Of a stretch of DNA of 55,218 nt, positions 27,801 to 35,537 are shown one piece after another; positions within the stretch are counted from its first letter, which is position 1; every line of letters begins with the position of its first letter. Source of the stretch: a virus. The DNA lies in IMG/VR virus record IMGVR_UViG_3300031841_002219, positions 1 to 55,218 of that record; one strand, written 5' to 3'. The position numbers and the translations under genes were made by a program. Under the pieces are notes generated by a model, which did not search any database, was not told where the DNA came from, and saw only the letters and a program-made list of their open reading frames with translations.

Positions 27801-27831
27801 AAAGGGACTCATTATGAGTCCCTTTTTTTTT
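27801..27831 (+). terminator. Rho-independent terminator
   Basis: A 10-bp stem AAAGGGACTC / GAGTCCCTTT with an ATTAT loop and a long T run. It separates the replication block from the curli-type block. Confidence 0.93.
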
Positions 27832-27853
27832 ACTTTGAAGAAACGGATATTAT

Positions 27854-27861
27854 TATAAATA
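27854..27861 (+). promoter_or_regulatory. Late promoter of the curli-type block, leaderless spacing
   Basis: Exact TATAAATA ending 5 nt before ATG 27867. It lies just after a terminator, so the downstream genes are expected to be expressed late. Confidence 0.82.
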
Positions 27862-27866
27862 ACAGT

Positions 27867-28163
27867 ATGGACTTTATGTTTGAATTGATAAGTGAATTGG
27901 GATTTCCTATAGCAGGTGGAATTGTTATGGGAGTGTTCATATTCGTTATCATCAAACAGATTCTACAAGGAATCGTAGACCAAATAAAAACACTAACAAT
28001 GTTTTGTAAATCTCTAGAGAATCGTGCAAGAACGATGTCCAACGAGATGACAAAGATAGACATGTTAGTCTCATCAGCTCTTCAACTGAGACCCGATATT
28101 GAAAGGGTTGCACGTGCAGAGAACTTCATAGAAGATGGGAAACTAGATGTAAGGAGAGACTAG
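27867..28163 (+). CDS. Membrane protein, paralogue A, curli block
   Basis: A 98-residue protein with one N-terminal transmembrane helix ('GFPIAGGIVMGVFIFVIIKQ') and a helical, coiled-coil-like C-terminus. It resembles the next gene product (E-L-I-S, then G-F-P-I, then a membrane helix). ATG 27867 is chosen because the late promoter is placed for it; the longer upstream reading would start inside the terminator. Its topology recalls small holins or membrane anchors. Function unknown. Confidence 0.7.
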   Translation: MDFMFELISELGFPIAGGIVMGVFIFVIIKQILQGIVDQIKTLTMFCKSLENRARTMSNEMTKIDMLVSSALQLRPDIERVARAENFIEDGKLDVRRD

Positions 28164-28450
28164 TGGAAGAATTAAACATAGTCGAACTTATATCACAGTA
28201 TGGTTTTCCGATTGTCATGGCAGTTGGGTTAGGTTACTTTATATATTATGTGTGGTGGTTCATTGGTGAACACATAGAACCCGAAATTGAAGAAATGCAT
28301 ATGGCATTGATTCGTGTAATCGACCAAACAAGGATGTTAGACCAAGACCTTATAAGACTGAAAACAAAAGTTGATGTAGTATTAGAGTATAAAGAAAATG
28401 AAAAGAAAAAGGGAAAAGGTAAAACCAATGAAAAAACTATTTCTAATTAG
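28163..28450 (+). CDS. Membrane protein, paralogue B, curli block
   Basis: A 95-residue protein starting at GTG in a TAGTG overlap, with AAGGAG 7 nt upstream. N-terminal membrane helix 'GFPIVMAVGLGYFIYYVWWF', then a charged coiled coil (about residues 40-75) and a Lys-rich tail. It is similar to paralogue A, suggesting a duplicated pair that may form a hetero-oligomer. It overlaps csgF by 23 nt. Confidence 0.7.
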   Translation: MEELNIVELISQYGFPIVMAVGLGYFIYYVWWFIGEHIEPEIEEMHMALIRVIDQTRMLDQDLIRLKTKVDVVLEYKENEKKKGKGKTNEKTISN

Positions 28451-28907
28451 TGGACTTCTTGCATTCAGTACAGGTGCAAGTTCAGATATAGTACAAAAAT
28501 TCAAGAACCCCAGTTTCAGTGGGGTAGGTACTGGAGCTCATTATCTCACAATTGAGAACCAAGAGCATTCACGGAAGAAAGCAATAGAGGATGCTTTGGA
28601 GTCAGCACGTAAAGCTGCAGAAAGAGAAGCAGAGAACTCAACGCTTGCAAAATTTATCAGAAACTTAGAATCAAGAATCTACTCACAGTTTGCAAAACAA
28701 TTAGTAGAGTCTATGTTTTCTAACGACAACCCAGCAGGATTTGGGTCATTCGTACTTGAAGGAAACACTATCACATGGGAAGTCATTGTAGATGAATCAG
28801 GTACAGAATTTATACAATTAACTATAGTGGCAGAGGACGGTTCAGAAACAGTAGTTACCATTCCAGTAGGAACAGGTAACTTTGGTCAAGACCCTGATGG
28901 TGGTTAA
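28428..28907 (+). CDS. csgF: CsgF-like curli secretion accessory protein
   Basis: A 159-residue protein with signal peptide 'MKKLFLISGLLAFSTGASS'. The mature N-terminus 'DIVQKFKNPSFSGVG' corresponds to the CsgF segment F-x-N-P-x-F-G that plugs into the CsgG pore in E. coli. The C-terminal part ('FVLEGNTITWEVIVDESGTE') ends in 'VVTIPVGTG', like the CsgF tail. In bacteria CsgF links the CsgG pore to nucleation of curli fibres. ATG 28428 is used because the upstream extension has no leader character. It directly precedes csgG. Confidence 0.88.
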   Translation: MKKLFLISGLLAFSTGASSDIVQKFKNPSFSGVGTGAHYLTIENQEHSRKKAIEDALESARKAAEREAENSTLAKFIRNLESRIYSQFAKQLVESMFSNDNPAGFGSFVLEGNTITWEVIVDESGTEFIQLTIVAEDGSETVVTIPVGTGNFGQDPDGG

Positions 28908-28908
28908 A

Positions 28909-29925
28909 ATGGTACGATATTTGCATCTATTACTAGGTGTCAGTATAATGACGGGGTGCGCATCATTTCCTCAATGGAGTGATAACCCCCAAGATTGTAA
29001 TGACATAGCTGGTAAGTATGCACAAGGTTGGGATGAAGATTTTGATAATGATGGTGATGTCAATGACGATTTGTTGACTGTAGTCAAACAAGGTCATAAT
29101 GAGTATAAAAAAAGGATTGCACGAAAATATATTTGTGTCGATAATCCCGAAGTAGTAAGACTACCATCGTACATAGAACTTTTAGAACTTCCACCAGCAA
29201 AAGAACAACCAGTCATTGCAGTATATAATTTTTTAGACAAGACTGGTCAAAGAAAAGCAAGAGAAGGTATTGCCGACTTCTCAACTGCAGTCACACAGGG
29301 TGCAACTGAAATGGTTATAGATGCATTCAAGACAGCAGGTGGTGGAACATGGTTTCGTGTTGTAGAAAGAAATGGTATAGACAATCTCGTAAGAGAGAGA
29401 CAAATCATTCGTTCTGCAAGACAAGATTATGCAAAGGCAACAGACACTACAGCAAAGGGTGTACAACCCTTATTATTCGCAGGAATAATAATTGAAGGTG
29501 GTGTCATTGGTTATGATACAAATCTTTTGACAGGTGGTCGTGGCGCAAGAACACTTGGCATAGGATATGCAAAACAGTATCGTAAAGATGTTGTAACAGT
29601 AAGTATGAGAGCAGTATCTGTTCTTACAGGTGAAGTATTATTAAACGTCCAAACACGTAAGAGTGTTTTATCTTACGGTTCTTCAGGTGACATCTTTCGA
29701 TTCATCGAACAGGGAACACAACTTGTTGAATATGAGGACGGCGTGGGAAATAATGAATCAGTGACATACGCGACACGAACAGCTATTGAAGCTGCAGTGT
29801 TGGAATTAATATACCAAGGACACGATAGAGGTTTTTGGGTAATAGAGGATGGTCATCGTCACCCCCATCAAAATGATGGAACAAACGATAAACATCCTAC
29901 AAAAGAGGTAAACGAAAATGAATAA
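28909..29925 (+). CDS. csgG: CsgG-like outer-membrane secretion channel lipoprotein
   Basis: A 338-residue protein. The lipobox M-T-G-C puts the lipid on C17, then a 25-residue insertion holds an EF-hand/dockerin-like loop D-F-D-N-D-G-D-V-N-D-D. The rest matches CsgG: 'AVYNFLDKTGQ', 'FSTAVTQGAT', 'RNGIDNLVRERQIIRSARQD', 'GGVIGYDTNLLTGGRGAR' and 'TGEVLLNVQTRKSVLSY'. E. coli CsgG forms a nonameric pore secreting curli subunits. At the constriction, Phe56 is kept (ADFSTAV) but Tyr51 and Asn55 appear replaced by Glu and Asp. The start is set just after the csgF stop. Confidence 0.93.
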   Translation: MVRYLHLLLGVSIMTGCASFPQWSDNPQDCNDIAGKYAQGWDEDFDNDGDVNDDLLTVVKQGHNEYKKRIARKYICVDNPEVVRLPSYIELLELPPAKEQPVIAVYNFLDKTGQRKAREGIADFSTAVTQGATEMVIDAFKTAGGGTWFRVVERNGIDNLVRERQIIRSARQDYAKATDTTAKGVQPLLFAGIIIEGGVIGYDTNLLTGGRGARTLGIGYAKQYRKDVVTVSMRAVSVLTGEVLLNVQTRKSVLSYGSSGDIFRFIEQGTQLVEYEDGVGNNESVTYATRTAIEAAVLELIYQGHDRGFWVIEDGHRHPHQNDGTNDKHPTKEVNENE

Positions 29926-30658
29926 ACTAATTAGTTTAATATTATTAATGTCGACAGCATTTGTTTTCGCACAAGCCACTGATGATAACGAAATTAAAAT
30001 CACACAAACTGGTGATACATTGAAACTTTATATTGACCAAATCGGTTTTGGTAACAAAATCGGTGGAGACAATGGTTCTTCAGGTAGTGTATCTGCTGCA
30101 ATGGCAATTACTGGTGCAACTTTAGAGTTTGATTTAGATTTTAACGGTAACAATAACGTCCTATTCGGGCCTGTTACTGCAGACAGTTCATATTACAAGT
30201 TAGACTTTACAGGTGACTCTAACGTAGTAGACTGGAAAATCGGTGACATAGGTAGTGCAGATTCTTCGAACATAAACTTTGATGTAACAGGTGGTAGTAA
30301 TACTTTTGATTTAGACCAAGGTAGTGTATCGAGTGCAGAATCATTAAATGCAGACTTAATATTAATAGGTAGTTCAAACGTATTTGATATTGATTGGGAA
30401 GCAGATAACTTAACATGGAATTGGGAAATTACTGGTGACAGTAACAACATTAACACTTTGCAAAATGATGCTAGTGACTCTTCATTAACAGTCGATTTGA
30501 CTGGTGACAGTGCAGACATAGACATAAACCAGTTAACTGGAACATGTCCGAGTGGTGCAACTGGGTGTGTATCACCTACTAGTATTATAACACTAGATGT
30601 TACAAGTGAAAATGCAATCATTCAAATCAATCAAAAAGATTCAGCTAACGATTCTTAA
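29918..30658 (+). CDS. Curlin-like repeat protein 1
   Basis: A 246-residue secreted protein with signal peptide 'MNKLISLILLMSTAFVFA'. The mature start 'IKITQTGDTLKLYIDQIGFG' has the curlin pattern I-x-Q-x-G-x2-N. Repeats of about 24-30 residues follow ('LDFTGDSNVVDWKIGD', 'FDVTGGSNTFDLDQGS', 'LILIGSSNVFDIDW', 'WEITGDSNNINTLQND', 'VDLTGDSADIDINQ'). They predict a beta-solenoid amyloid-like fold. It overlaps csgG by 8 nt, so it is the likely substrate of the channel. Asp content is much higher than in CsgA. Confidence 0.8.
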   Translation: MNKLISLILLMSTAFVFAQATDDNEIKITQTGDTLKLYIDQIGFGNKIGGDNGSSGSVSAAMAITGATLEFDLDFNGNNNVLFGPVTADSSYYKLDFTGDSNVVDWKIGDIGSADSSNINFDVTGGSNTFDLDQGSVSSAESLNADLILIGSSNVFDIDWEADNLTWNWEITGDSNNINTLQNDASDSSLTVDLTGDSADIDINQLTGTCPSGATGCVSPTSIITLDVTSENAIIQINQKDSANDS

Positions 30659-31763
30659 TTTATTGTTATTCAGTGGGATTGCTCTTAGCAATCCCATTGG
30701 TGACGTAAAAGAATTGACGGGTGTTGCAACACTCCTACGCGAAGACAATCCACAAGAAATAGAAGAAGGATACGATGTAGTCCTGTACGATGAAGCACGT
30801 ACTGGAAATGGTAGGATGTTGATAGAGTTCTTAGACGAAGAAGAACTTGCACTTACTGAACACTCCATAGTGTATATCGATGAAGCATACTATGACCCCG
30901 ACCCATCGTTATCAAAAATGTCAATCAGTATGGTTCAGGGTACAGCTCGATTTGCATCAGGAACTGGAAGTAGAATACGTAAATCAAATATAAATGTATC
31001 TACACCTACAGCACAGATTGCGATTCGAGGCACAAATTTTTCAACAACAATCGATGAATTGGGTAGAACACTTGTTATACTTTTACCCGATGAAGATGGT
31101 ATAACACCTTCAGGAGAGATAGATGTATCTAACGAAGGTGGGACAATAACACTCAATAAAGCTTTCGAAGCAACAATGGTTGCAACAGTTGAGACACCTC
31201 CAACTAGAAGTGTGGTTATAAATAATATTACCACTGCATTAATCGACAATATGTTCATTGTAAATCCCCCTGAGGAAGTGCAACAAGTTGTCGAAGAAGA
31301 AGCATTGGCAGACTTGGAACAAGACCAAGGTTTATTAGATATAGATTTTTTAGAGTTTAATGAATTAGAAGGTGACGCAGGGTTATCGGTTAATGAATTA
31401 GATGAGTTCAGTGAACTAGATATCGACATGTTAGATGTTGATTTCTTAACAGACTTACTAGATGTAGTCGAAGAATTAGAAAGGACTACAATCAAACTTG
31501 GAGACACACAAACACAAGGTAGCACTGGTGGTGATTTTAAAATACAAGGTGCTACACTAGGATTTAATAAAGATTCACAATATAATGTTTTTGTTCAAGA
31601 CGGAGATTTATATCTCTATAGAAACGTAAACGGAGTGATTGAAATAATCATTGCACAAGGTGGAAACGGTTACGTTGAGACTTACGTTGAAGGATATCAA
31701 GGTACTATCGGGTTCGGTGACGGTAGTCAGGGTATCCAAATTATAATCAACCAGTCTAACTAA
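30612..31763 (+). CDS. Secreted FecR-domain protein
   Basis: A 383-residue protein. A signal peptide (about residues 1-28, ending 'LLLFSGIALS') is followed by a FecR-type domain ('GDVKELTGVATLLRED', 'DEARTGNGRMLIEFLDEEEL', 'VQGTARFASG', 'TPTAQIAIRGTNFST'). A long acidic linker and a C-terminal Gln/Gly-rich region ('GDTQTQGSTGG', 'GYQGTIGFGDGSQGIQIIIN') with curlin-like spacing follow. FecR domains in secreted proteins can act as surface or polymer-binding modules. It overlaps the curlin-like gene by 47 nt, so it is in the same operon. Confidence 0.75.
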   Translation: MQSFKSIKKIQLTILNLLLFSGIALSNPIGDVKELTGVATLLREDNPQEIEEGYDVVLYDEARTGNGRMLIEFLDEEELALTEHSIVYIDEAYYDPDPSLSKMSISMVQGTARFASGTGSRIRKSNINVSTPTAQIAIRGTNFSTTIDELGRTLVILLPDEDGITPSGEIDVSNEGGTITLNKAFEATMVATVETPPTRSVVINNITTALIDNMFIVNPPEEVQQVVEEEALADLEQDQGLLDIDFLEFNELEGDAGLSVNELDEFSELDIDMLDVDFLTDLLDVVEELERTTIKLGDTQTQGSTGGDFKIQGATLGFNKDSQYNVFVQDGDLYLYRNVNGVIEIIIAQGGNGYVETYVEGYQGTIGFGDGSQGIQIIINQSN

Positions 31764-31777
31764 ATATAGGAGAATAT

Positions 31778-31918
31778 ATGTTAAATAAGGCAAAAGAATG
31801 GCACGAAAAATCTTTGATGAATTTTCAAAAAGGATTAAGATTAGATGACTATCACATGTTGTGGTTAGCATTTGGTAAAGGTGTCGTCTTGGTATTATTA
31901 TTACAATGGATATTTTAA
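31778..31918 (+). CDS. Small protein with C-terminal membrane helix
   Basis: A 46-residue ORF with AGGAG before the ATG. The N-terminal half is polar and basic ('MLNKAKEWHEKSLMNFQKGL'), the end hydrophobic ('LWLAFGKGVVLVLLLQWIF'). A CTAAATA box (31760-31766) lies upstream, so it may be a late gene. It overlaps the second curlin-like gene by 13 nt. Function unknown; too short for most gene finders. Confidence 0.6.
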   Translation: MLNKAKEWHEKSLMNFQKGLRLDDYHMLWLAFGKGVVLVLLLQWIF

Positions 31919-32622
31919 CTAAAATGAAAACGGTATTTGTGGGGATGTTAATCATCCCCATGATTACTATAGCCGAAGATAACGAGATAGTCATTCCAAG
32001 TATTACAGGAAATGATATCGAAATTAATATTACTCAAATAGGATATGCAAACACTATACAGTGTTATAACACTACATCCTGTTATACCAATTTACCAAGT
32101 GGTGAACTTACACTCATTCAAGAAAACCATTCAGGTACAGAAAACAAAATAGAACTTTGGCACTTAGATGGTCAAGACAACATCATACGTTGGGGCCAGG
32201 GTGTTGCATGGGCAGGTGCAACATCTGAATCATATTCATATGACGGTGTCGAAGGTGGTGGACACTATACAAGATTAGACGTACACGGAGACTATAATCA
32301 TTTACAAGGACATCAAACAAATCAAGGAAGCACCAGTGGTCACACATTCACAAGTCTTATTATGAGTGATAGTAATGACATTTGGGTAAGACAACAACAC
32401 GATGGTGCAAAGACAATTAATCTAACAACAAATAGTGATGGTAATGATATCACACTACGACAGAAAGGAGCTTGGGCAACACACACAGCAAACATTACAT
32501 TATCAGGAAGTGACCCAACTACACTTAATCTTTTACAACAAGGTACTACAACACAAACTTATACGTTATCTCAAACTTGTGTTACAGTCGGAGGGTGTAG
32601 TGTATCAGTTACACAGGAATAG
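31906..32622 (+). CDS. Curlin-like repeat protein 2
   Basis: A 238-residue secreted protein. The signal peptide 'MKTVFVGMLIIPMITIA' may begin at ATG 31924; ATG 31906 overlaps the previous ORF. The mature part has curlin-type units ('INITQIGYANTIQ', 'LTLIQENHSGTENKIEL', 'ITLRQKGAWATHTANITLSG', 'TLNLLQQGTTTQTYTLSQ') with Gln and Asn at regular positions, closer to classical CsgA/CsgB repeats than protein 1. Two Cys pairs (CYNTTSC and CVTVGGC) could form disulfides outside the cell. Probably a second CsgG substrate or the nucleator. Confidence 0.78.
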   Translation: MDILTKMKTVFVGMLIIPMITIAEDNEIVIPSITGNDIEINITQIGYANTIQCYNTTSCYTNLPSGELTLIQENHSGTENKIELWHLDGQDNIIRWGQGVAWAGATSESYSYDGVEGGGHYTRLDVHGDYNHLQGHQTNQGSTSGHTFTSLIMSDSNDIWVRQQHDGAKTINLTTNSDGNDITLRQKGAWATHTANITLSGSDPTTLNLLQQGTTTQTYTLSQTCVTVGGCSVSVTQE

Positions 32623-32691: not shown

Positions 32692-33141
32692 ATGGCATAT
32701 TCAGAAGAAGTAGTAAAAAGATTCGAAGCGGTTCTAGCAAATCCCAAGAAACATTCAGTTGGTAGACTAGACCAAAACGACCCCAAAGTTGCAACAGGAC
32801 TCGCAGGAGCTCCAGCATGTGGTGATGTTATGCAACTTCAACTATTACTAGATGACGATGAAAGAATCATCGATGTAAAATTCAAAACATATGGTTGTGG
32901 AAGTGCAATTGCAAGTTCATCTATGTTCGTAGATATGATGATGGGTAAGACTGTTGAAGAAGCAAAACTTATCAAAGATAAAGATATTGCAGATGCACTA
33001 GACTTACCACCAATCAAATTACACTGTAGTGTCTTAGCTGAAGATGCAATAAGAAAAGCAATGATTAATTACGAAGACAAGAAGAGTTCTAAGATAGGAC
33101 ACAATAACCCACCTCTCTCAAGAGAAGACTTTATAGAATGA
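32692..33141 (+). CDS. iscU: IscU-like Fe-S cluster scaffold
   Basis: A 149-residue scaffold protein. All three cluster cysteines are present: C43 ('GAPACGD'), C69 ('TYGCGSAIASSS') and C112 ('KLHCSVLAEDAI'), with D45 and the 'LHCS' in place of the IscU LPPVK-HC region ('LPPIKLHC'). It would assemble 2Fe-2S clusters. A C-terminal extension ends in 'IGHNNPP', a motif common in phage proteins. CTAAATA ends 5 nt before the ATG, so it may be a leaderless late gene. Overlaps the next gene by ATGA. Confidence 0.92.
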   Translation: MAYSEEVVKRFEAVLANPKKHSVGRLDQNDPKVATGLAGAPACGDVMQLQLLLDDDERIIDVKFKTYGCGSAIASSSMFVDMMMGKTVEEAKLIKDKDIADALDLPPIKLHCSVLAEDAIRKAMINYEDKKSSKIGHNNPPLSREDFIE

Positions 33142-33386
33142 GTGGTTCACATATGCAAGAGATACAGAATTGTCCACAACCTCTACATGGAGAAGATGGA
33201 GAGTGGGACGATGAACTTGCATCGATGGAAATGGGTGATGTAGAAGCTGCATCTGATTTTGTATGGCAGGTTCTCTTCCTTACACCAATAGAACTAGTTT
33301 ACATAGGTTTTACTATGACTGTTCTTGCACTCTATGGTCTCTCTATTTACTACATGTTTAAAAAGATTCAGAAAAAATTCTCATAA
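33138..33386 (+). CDS. Small membrane protein
   Basis: An 82-residue protein coupled to iscU (ATGA) and to the cyclase gene (shared base of TAATG). An acidic N-terminal region ('EDGEWDDELASMEMGDVEAA') precedes one long transmembrane helix ('PIELVYIGFTMTVLALYGLS') and a basic end. It may partner with the cyclase or anchor Fe-S assembly near the membrane. No family recognised. Confidence 0.65.
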   Translation: MSGSHMQEIQNCPQPLHGEDGEWDDELASMEMGDVEAASDFVWQVLFLTPIELVYIGFTMTVLALYGLSIYYMFKKIQKKFS

Positions 33387-35248
33387 TGTATAGTTGGAAA
33401 ACCGTCTTAATAACGATAGGATTATTAGTCGGTGTTAAAATATGGAATCCCTATATCGTAGAGAATATACAGTGGTCATGGTTTGATTTTCTACATCAAC
33501 AACACGAAGAAATACACGTAGACGATATTGTTCTAGTCAATATAGATGAGAAATCTATAGACAAGTACGGACAGTATCCATTCCCTAGAGATGTTTATGG
33601 TGATACACTATGGGACACTCATCACACTAACACTCATGTTTTTTCAATTATTTTTTCAGAACCCGACAGGTTTGGTGGTGATGAAGTATTTGCAGATGGA
33701 TTAGTAAATCGTTTATCAATTTTAGGAGCTGCACCCACGACACAAAAGGATACAGGTTCTGCACCATATGTTAGAACAAGTGTATTTGGTGGTGGAGATA
33801 TTACACTTCATGCATGGAATTACGATGGAATTTTAAATCCTGTCGATACGCTGATGAATAACACATATGGGGTCGGGGTTACGGTTGCAACTCCATCAGT
33901 CTCAGGGACGCCCAATTTTGACGGTACGGTACGTTCTGCACCACTCTTAGTTACTGCAAATGACGTAGTGTATCCGAGTGTAGTTTTAGAGACTCTCAGA
34001 GCATTTTATGACCAACCCAACTACCAAACTAGGGTTACACCCGAGACAGGTATAGAGTGGATTAGAATGGGTAGAGAGAAACCTATTGAGACAACATCCA
34101 CTGCAGATGTAATGATATCATATTGGAATCATTTCCCTTCAATCTCTTTTGCAGATTTACCTAATTCAGATATTCAGAATAAGATTCTAATCTATGGTCT
34201 GACTGCAGAGGGTTTGAATAATCCAGTTTCAACCCCAGTGGGTGTAATGTATCCCCACGAAGTTCAAGCCTCTCTCCTTCAAACCGTTTTGACAGGAGTT
34301 CAAATACAACAATCCTACTATCTTGAATTCTTAGAAATTGTTCTTTTGGTGTCAGTCCTTCTAGTGACTCTTCTAGTGGTCTACAATGTTCCCACAACTC
34401 TTGCGGCTCTAGTCTCTTTAGGAATAGTAGGTCTTCAGGGGTATGGGGGATATTGGTTATGGACTTCAAGTTACGTTCTTTTCGATACCTTTTTTTCATC
34501 GGTAGCCTCCTTGATAGTTTTTGGACATGCATCTTTCAACAAATACTATACAACTTATCAACTCAAAGAACAAATTAAGAAGCAGTTCCAAAAGTATTTA
34601 TCACCCGATATGGTTGACCAACTTGCAGAAGACCCATCGAAATTGAAGTTAGGTGGAGAGAGAAAAGAGATGACATTCATGTTCATGGACATCTGTGGAT
34701 TCACTCCAATCAGTGAACACTACAAGAACAATGATGACCCCGAAGGATTAGTTGAATTAGTCAATAAGTTTCTTGATATGCAGACGAAGATAATCCTAAA
34801 TAATAAGGGTACTATAGACAAATACATGGGTGATTGTATTATGAGTTTTTGGAATGCACCACTGGATTGTCCCGACCATGCTGAATTAGCAGTTAAGTCA
34901 TCACTAGAAATATTAGAAGCAACCAAAAAACTCAATGAAGAATTATCTCCTCTCAATCTTCCTCCTATTAATGTCGGCATCGGCATTTCCACAGGAACCT
35001 GTATTGTCGGAAACATGGGGTCAGAACTTAGATTTGACTATTCCGTCATTGGAGATGCCGTCAACCTTGGAGCTAGACTCGAGGGACAAACAAGAAATTA
35101 TGATGGGGTGGACGTGTTGTTATCGGAAGACACTTATAGACAGTGTTCATCAAGAGCATTTTCTGAAGTCGACAGAATTCTCGTTAAGGGAAAATCAGAG
35201 AAAGTACGTATCTTCACTCCAATGGAATCTAAGGGAACCACCATCTAA
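33386..35248 (+). CDS. CHASE2-domain transmembrane adenylate cyclase
   Basis: A 620-residue class III cyclase. A short N-terminal membrane helix is followed by an extracytoplasmic CHASE2 sensor ('DIVLVNIDEKSIDKYGQYPF' at about residue 47, then 'LIYGLTAEGLNNPVSTPVG'). Helices span residues 310-400, and the catalytic domain begins near residue 425. D435 (MDICGF) and the second Asp (MGDCIMSF) bind metals, K479 (DKYMGD) and D547 region (FDYSVIGDAVN) select adenine, and N-L-G-A-R carries the transition-state Asn/Arg. All key residues are present, so cAMP synthesis is predicted. It follows the curli block and iscU. Confidence 0.93.
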   Translation: MYSWKTVLITIGLLVGVKIWNPYIVENIQWSWFDFLHQQHEEIHVDDIVLVNIDEKSIDKYGQYPFPRDVYGDTLWDTHHTNTHVFSIIFSEPDRFGGDEVFADGLVNRLSILGAAPTTQKDTGSAPYVRTSVFGGGDITLHAWNYDGILNPVDTLMNNTYGVGVTVATPSVSGTPNFDGTVRSAPLLVTANDVVYPSVVLETLRAFYDQPNYQTRVTPETGIEWIRMGREKPIETTSTADVMISYWNHFPSISFADLPNSDIQNKILIYGLTAEGLNNPVSTPVGVMYPHEVQASLLQTVLTGVQIQQSYYLEFLEIVLLVSVLLVTLLVVYNVPTTLAALVSLGIVGLQGYGGYWLWTSSYVLFDTFFSSVASLIVFGHASFNKYYTTYQLKEQIKKQFQKYLSPDMVDQLAEDPSKLKLGGERKEMTFMFMDICGFTPISEHYKNNDDPEGLVELVNKFLDMQTKIILNNKGTIDKYMGDCIMSFWNAPLDCPDHAELAVKSSLEILEATKKLNEELSPLNLPPINVGIGISTGTCIVGNMGSELRFDYSVIGDAVNLGARLEGQTRNYDGVDVLLSEDTYRQCSSRAFSEVDRILVKGKSEKVRIFTPMESKGTTI

Positions 35249-35255
35249 AACAACG

Positions 35256-35537
35256 ATGGCAATGTTTTATACATTGCACCTTGCAGACATTTGGACAACA
35301 CAAAGAGGATTGGATTACGATTGTGTGTATGAGGCAAATCCATTACTTCCTAAGATACCACGTATAGATAGATTACTAATACACAAGACAATATTCTTAT
35401 CACCCGTATGGTTCTTAGAAAAAGAAGATGTTCTTAGAAACGTAGACCTTGTGTTCCCAATGATGGCAACTGCATACGTAGTGTATCATAATCTAGAAGT
35501 TATTGATAGTGCATCTAAAAGGTGTGACAAAAGGTAA
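35256..35537 (+). CDS. Small DUF5658-like membrane protein
   Basis: A 93-residue protein. 'TLHLADIWTTQRGLDYDCVY' followed by 'EANPLLPKIP' fits the family pattern (LHxAD-x-TT-x-GL ... EANP) of small membrane proteins of unknown function. ATG 35256 is chosen; the frame stays open upstream to 34935, but that part lies inside the catalytic domain of the cyclase and is treated as chance. Two hydrophobic segments are likely membrane helices. Confidence 0.65.
   Translation: MAMFYTLHLADIWTTQRGLDYDCVYEANPLLPKIPRIDRLLIHKTIFLSPVWFLEKEDVLRNVDLVFPMMATAYVVYHNLEVIDSASKRCDKR

Follow-up and report, generated by a model that had tools for sequence, protein, structure and literature searches.

A curli-type secretion and fibre gene set behind a late promoter in a T4-like marine myophage

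A phage-borne gene set for curli-type secretion and fibres is real and widespread. The window, which is the whole stretch of 55,218 nucleotides analysed here, covers 55 kb of a T4-like marine myophage whose head protein is nearest to that of cyanophage ACG-2014f. Directly downstream of genes that read as replication genes, a terminator and a late promoter are followed by 11 consecutive genes in the same direction, several of which overlap, in the order sm1, sm2, csgF, csgG, cur1, fecR, cur2, iscU, a gene for an 82-residue membrane protein, the CHASE2 cyclase gene and a DUF5658-like gene. All features of the window described below are on the + strand. The first-pass annotation had placed CsgF and CsgG beside two curlin-type proteins, a secreted FecR protein and a paralogous membrane pair, and the analysis confirmed this neighbourhood. 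That annotation ended the cassette too soon, at 32622. The closing gene, the CHASE2 cyclase, reaches 35248, and the shorter span misses three genes (IscU, the small membrane protein and the cyclase); the curlin-like tail of FecR was also overlooked. With some reserve, we favour reading the cassette as a curli (type VIII) unit for secretion and fibres that lacks CsgE and is expressed late.

The cassette itself is already known from publications of 2020 to 2022 on phages of SAR11 and OM43. These report csgF, csgG and a curli-associated protein in pelagimyophages (PMC7029224), phage Melnitz with a proposed role in lysis (PMC9004378), and the full set with both CsgA/B genes, FecR and cyclase, together with its transfer between phage families (PMC9599517). 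A complete set had been called less familiar, which does not hold, as a 2022 publication describes it in podo- and myo-pelagiphages and the Melnitz record annotates it. HTVC023P-type podoviruses and pelagimyophages, in the cassette section of PMC9599517, have one or two small 'HK' genes, CsgF, CsgG, CsgA/B, FecR, a second CsgA/B and adenylate cyclase, and no CsgE. Compared with that cassette, the window adds IscU and the 82-residue membrane protein gene before the cyclase, and its small pair is non-kinase by sequence. The FecR tail, the non-kinase pair, the promoter at −13 and the probably inherited absence of CsgE were not found in these published descriptions, as far as their cassette sections go.

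The channel genes are the clearest members of the set. CsgG (28882..29925), the outer-membrane secretion channel with a lipoprotein cysteine at residue 26, belongs to its family as claimed earlier (PF03783, E 1.9e-49), and a profile search matched the solved E. coli CsgG structures (E 3e-66). CsgF (28428..28907, longest frame from 28398; PF10614, E 1.3e-11) carries the plug motif F-K-N-P-S-F, and a single-sequence search of CsgF against PDB chains gave no match. The N-terminal F-x-N-P-x-F segment noticed before is indeed retained, and F-x-[NS]-P-x-F was present in 132 of 133 viral CsgF proteins, the sole exception being a sequence that misses its N-terminus. The constriction Phe of CsgG is kept together with the CsgF plug motif, and the residue pattern is that of bacterial CsgG. 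A phage-specific repurposing of the constriction was rejected, as the SF pattern with Phe kept is common to bacterial CsgG.

Two candidate fibre subunits are encoded with the channel. Cur1 (29918..30658) passes the cut-off of Curlin_rpt (PF07012, E 3.4e-5), and its G-x-x-N and h-x-h-x-Q motifs exceed those in shuffles; it contains few canonical curlin repeats. The AlphaFold (AF2) model of cur1 is a beta-solenoid (mean pLDDT 75, pTM 0.74), so the outcome named beforehand as refuting, no such fold in either repeat protein, did not occur. Among the structures aligned, its top match was Pontibacter CsgA (8c50; Z 16.7, 197 residues, rmsd 8.8 Å), with unrelated solenoids reaching Z 15.8, a margin for CsgA of under 1 Z. 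With plain Foldseek the model had no match at E <= 0.001, and only the second aligner put CsgA first. The solenoid fold class of the model is secure; identity with CsgA is suggested. Cur2 (31906..32622) is a second, diverged curlin-type protein. The protein of the window matched no Pfam family by itself, and a profile search of cur2 against PDB chains gave no match. Curlin_rpt was matched by four of the seven members of its alignment, and cur2 has 7 h-x-h-x-Q strands versus 1.0 in shuffles. Its Cys-capped C-terminus is shared with the curlins of alphaproteobacterial csg loci.

The secreted FecR-domain protein (30612..31763; PF04773, E 7.5e-9) has a beta domain at its C-terminus. Its model starts with a signal or membrane helix, which leads into a domain resembling the cell-surface signalling domain of PupR (6ovk; Z 15.0, 137 residues, rmsd 2.5). 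The model is also partly similar to a domain for anchoring at the cell surface (5ix9; Z 9.7, 26% identity), and it finishes with a six-strand beta domain whose last strand is the curlin-like SQGIQIIINQSN (31725..31760). This tail is short. The strict tail motif [IVL]x[IVL]xQxN stood at the C-terminus of 54 of the 67 unique complete FecR proteins versus 0 of 1528 control ORFs, and a loose form was found in 64 of 67 versus 4 of 1528; the FecR set includes one bacterial protein, which is without the motif, and the controls are other ORFs of the viral loci. No N-terminal cytoplasmic anti-sigma domain was found in FecR: ahead of the FecR domain stands only a signal or membrane helix (about 25 residues), and no other Pfam family matched. 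Because the protein ends in a curlin-like strand that is lacking in the nearest bacterial FecR (Hyphomonas TMED17), which ends differently, the phage FecR is suggested to anchor or nucleate the fibre and not to regulate iron.

Of about 170 viral loci, nearly all showed the same order of the cassette, as did the cultured phages HTVC008M and Melnitz. In 94 viral and cultured-phage loci collected through CsgG, a set in which some contigs are counted twice, the order was the same up to the contig ends except for small gene-calling gaps and the variable IscU. In 79 further loci collected through sm2, csgF was next in 76, two of the other three ended at that point and the third was L219. Both samples are best-scoring matches rather than an unbiased census. 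Curlin-type genes stay beside csgGF in the viral loci and in both cultured phages. Pelagibacter phage HTVC008M (KC465899) shares the gene order and has a CsgG 52% identical to that of the window, but its second curlin is longer (441 aa) and its FecR and cur2 are annotated as hypothetical. Methylophilales phage Melnitz (MZ577097) also shares the gene order, and its record carries annotations for FecR, the cyclase and two curlin-associated repeat proteins; in contrast to the window, its CsgG is about 47% identical and no IscU stands between cur2 and the cyclase. On two viral contigs of 217 and 340 kb (L201, L203) the cassette lies in sequences longer than the cultured relatives (141–147 kb), which may be larger phages or assembly artefacts. 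A CsgG match in a 1499-base 'Salmonella phage' record (OR851715.1) looks like host DNA and was disregarded, and no curli genes are annotated within the first 50 kb of podovirus MW574966.

In the proposed mechanism, a nonameric CsgG capped by CsgF would form the outer-membrane channel, and cur1 and cur2 would be its curlin substrates, exported through CsgG and polymerising as beta-solenoid fibres on the infected cell late in infection. FecR would anchor or nucleate the fibre through its curlin-like terminal strand and may report to the CHASE2 cyclase by signalling. Candidate benefits are host aggregation or a coating against superinfection. In a more specific and tentative version, which we think may well be wrong, the FecR domain with its curlin-type strand templates cur1 and cur2, links fibre assembly to the cyclase, and replaces a CsgB-type nucleator together with the missing control by CsgE and CsgD. 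According to PMC9004378, cultures infected with Melnitz showed no visible clumping, which counts against the fibre reading.

Channel, plug and two fibre-type substrates encoded together without CsgE and behind a late promoter, as the first-pass annotation had it, are borne out by the analysis. An intrinsic-terminator-like stem-loop of 11 pairs with a T run (27801..27833) ends the preceding unit, and a T4-type late promoter, TATAAATA, follows at 27854..27861, 13 nt upstream of the ATG that opens the cassette. The promoter claimed there is conserved among relatives: of 122 distinct regions, 97 had NATAAATA in the 90 nt before sm1, versus 2.9% of random windows, and the motif stood exactly at −13 from the first ATG in 52 of 113 upstream regions. 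A T4 late promoter at −13 would presumably start transcription at about the sm1 ATG. Shine-Dalgarno-like words occurred in 10 of the 52 sm1 regions with the −13 motif versus 37 of 37 for cur1. With the promoter placed exactly 13 nt before its ATG, sm1, the first gene of the cassette, is probably translated leaderless.

Sm1 (27867..28163), with one apparent membrane helix and a coiled coil, and its paralogue sm2 (28163..28450) belong to one PHROG family, phrog_18771 (E 2e-24 and 8e-26). They occupy the position of the published 'histidine kinase', yet their sequences rule out such a function. No kinase domain was found in these proteins of about 95–100 aa. The sm1 alignment has no conserved histidine and no column with His above 4%, and the sm2 alignment has one His column at 87% and no ATPase domain, so a histidine kinase reading was rejected. 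From synteny, the published podoviral 'HK' genes would be of the same family. Both proteins weakly resemble the holin family phrog_4898 (best E 1e-4, 4 of 17 members). This similarity and the late promoter would fit a CsgGF pore repurposed as a pinholin- or secretin-like lysis timer or aid, with the small pair as holin partners, and a lysis role is what the Melnitz description proposes (PMC9004378). We consider this unlikely. At the constriction and the plug, the residues match those of CsgG and CsgF that serve secretion, the fibre substrates and the FecR–cyclase pair are conserved with the pore, and an outer-membrane pore alone leaves two curlins unexplained. Lysis through an outer-membrane pore, raised earlier, is disfavoured against fibre secretion because the pore keeps its ordinary secretion-type features and its substrates.

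Behind cur2 lie the genes of the cassette end. The inserted IscU/NifU-like scaffold gene (32692..33141, a family match) stands between cur2 and the cyclase in the window, and it is upstream of the cassette (L011, 7027–7521) or absent in relatives; it therefore moves independently of the cassette. The predicted 82-residue protein (33138..33386) has one apparent membrane helix. It is followed by the CHASE2 class III adenylate/guanylate cyclase (33386..35248; PF05226 4e-30, PF00211 3e-18), whose catalytic motifs are intact, as they are in 43–45 of the 45 cyclases of viral cassettes and relatives. The longest frame of the next gene (34935–35537) overlaps the cyclase end; its DUF5658 match is weak and below the cut-off, and the gene is kept after the cyclase in relatives.

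The nearest bacterial CsgG (51%) was found in Hyphomonas sp. TMED17 (L103), where a 705-kb contig shows the same order of csgF, csgG, curlin, fecR and CHASE2 cyclase. Unlike the phages, this bacterium has no small membrane pair and a single curlin of 504 aa. Among the 21 CsgG-bearing genomes of its order, FecR and cyclase lie beside csgFG only here. In another alphaproteobacterial genome, FecR genes were within 3 kb of two CHASE2 cyclases and away from curli, and a FecR-CHASE2 cluster is reported in the part of PMC9239204 that treats Campylobacterota. Because FecR-CHASE2 occurs away from curli in bacteria, FecR and cyclase look like a pre-existing pair that would have joined a bacterial curli operon before capture by phages; transfer of the set in the opposite direction, from phage to bacterium, is also compatible with these arrangements. 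Phage cassettes also stand on contigs (L096–L102) that public MAGs assign to Sphingobacteriales, Synechococcus, Flavobacteriales and other groups; these contigs are probably misbinned phage DNA and were left out as bacterial evidence.

One viral locus (L219, 3705–8188) has the small pair without csg genes, followed in the csgF place by a methyltransferase named FkbM-type from reading its sequence, and a CHASE2 cyclase is encoded on the opposite strand. The small pair and the cyclase can therefore exist without csgFG. This locus, the FecR-CHASE2 pairs without curli and the intact cyclase motifs would suit a unit that is mainly a sensor, in which FecR, in the periplasm or at the surface, and the cyclase raise cAMP on the surface state while curli are merely sensed or vestigial. 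Such a role is quite improbable in our estimate, since CsgF, CsgG and the curlins are as constant as the cyclase, and the curlin-type tail ties FecR to the fibre.

Compared with the E. coli csgBAC/csgDEFG system, with which it shares CsgG, CsgF and curlin-type subunits, the phage cassette is without CsgE and adds FecR and the cyclase; no CsgD or CsgC was seen in it. The absence of CsgE reported before was confirmed in the window and in the complete genomes of HTVC008M and Melnitz. CsgE, the gate in E. coli, is not universal and was not counted as required for membership in curli/type VIII systems. None was found in the 21 alphaproteobacterial genomes bearing CsgG, the nearest relative included, and the absence in phages is probably inherited because these related bacteria are also without it. 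An open CsgG pore that raises nutrient or cofactor uptake during infection, as suggested where PMC7029224 and PMC9599517 discuss the cassette, would agree with the lack of CsgE and is very unlikely, as bacteria of the order of Hyphomonas TMED17 lack CsgE beside intact-looking curli operons and the CsgF plug and curlins would stay unexplained.

The cassette is found widely among viruses that infect the ocean's most abundant bacteria. Curli are lacking in the known hosts, and infection would therefore equip the cell with a function new to its surface. Two published interpretations are put in doubt by the details added here: that FecR regulates iron, and that the small genes encode histidine kinases. 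The same details make the fibre hypothesis testable, as both the tail of FecR and a late promoter joined directly to the first start codon can be targeted precisely. Beyond the cassette, nine TATAAATA sites were counted in the window, all on the + strand, versus a mean of 3.7 on both strands of shuffles, so other late units could be mapped.
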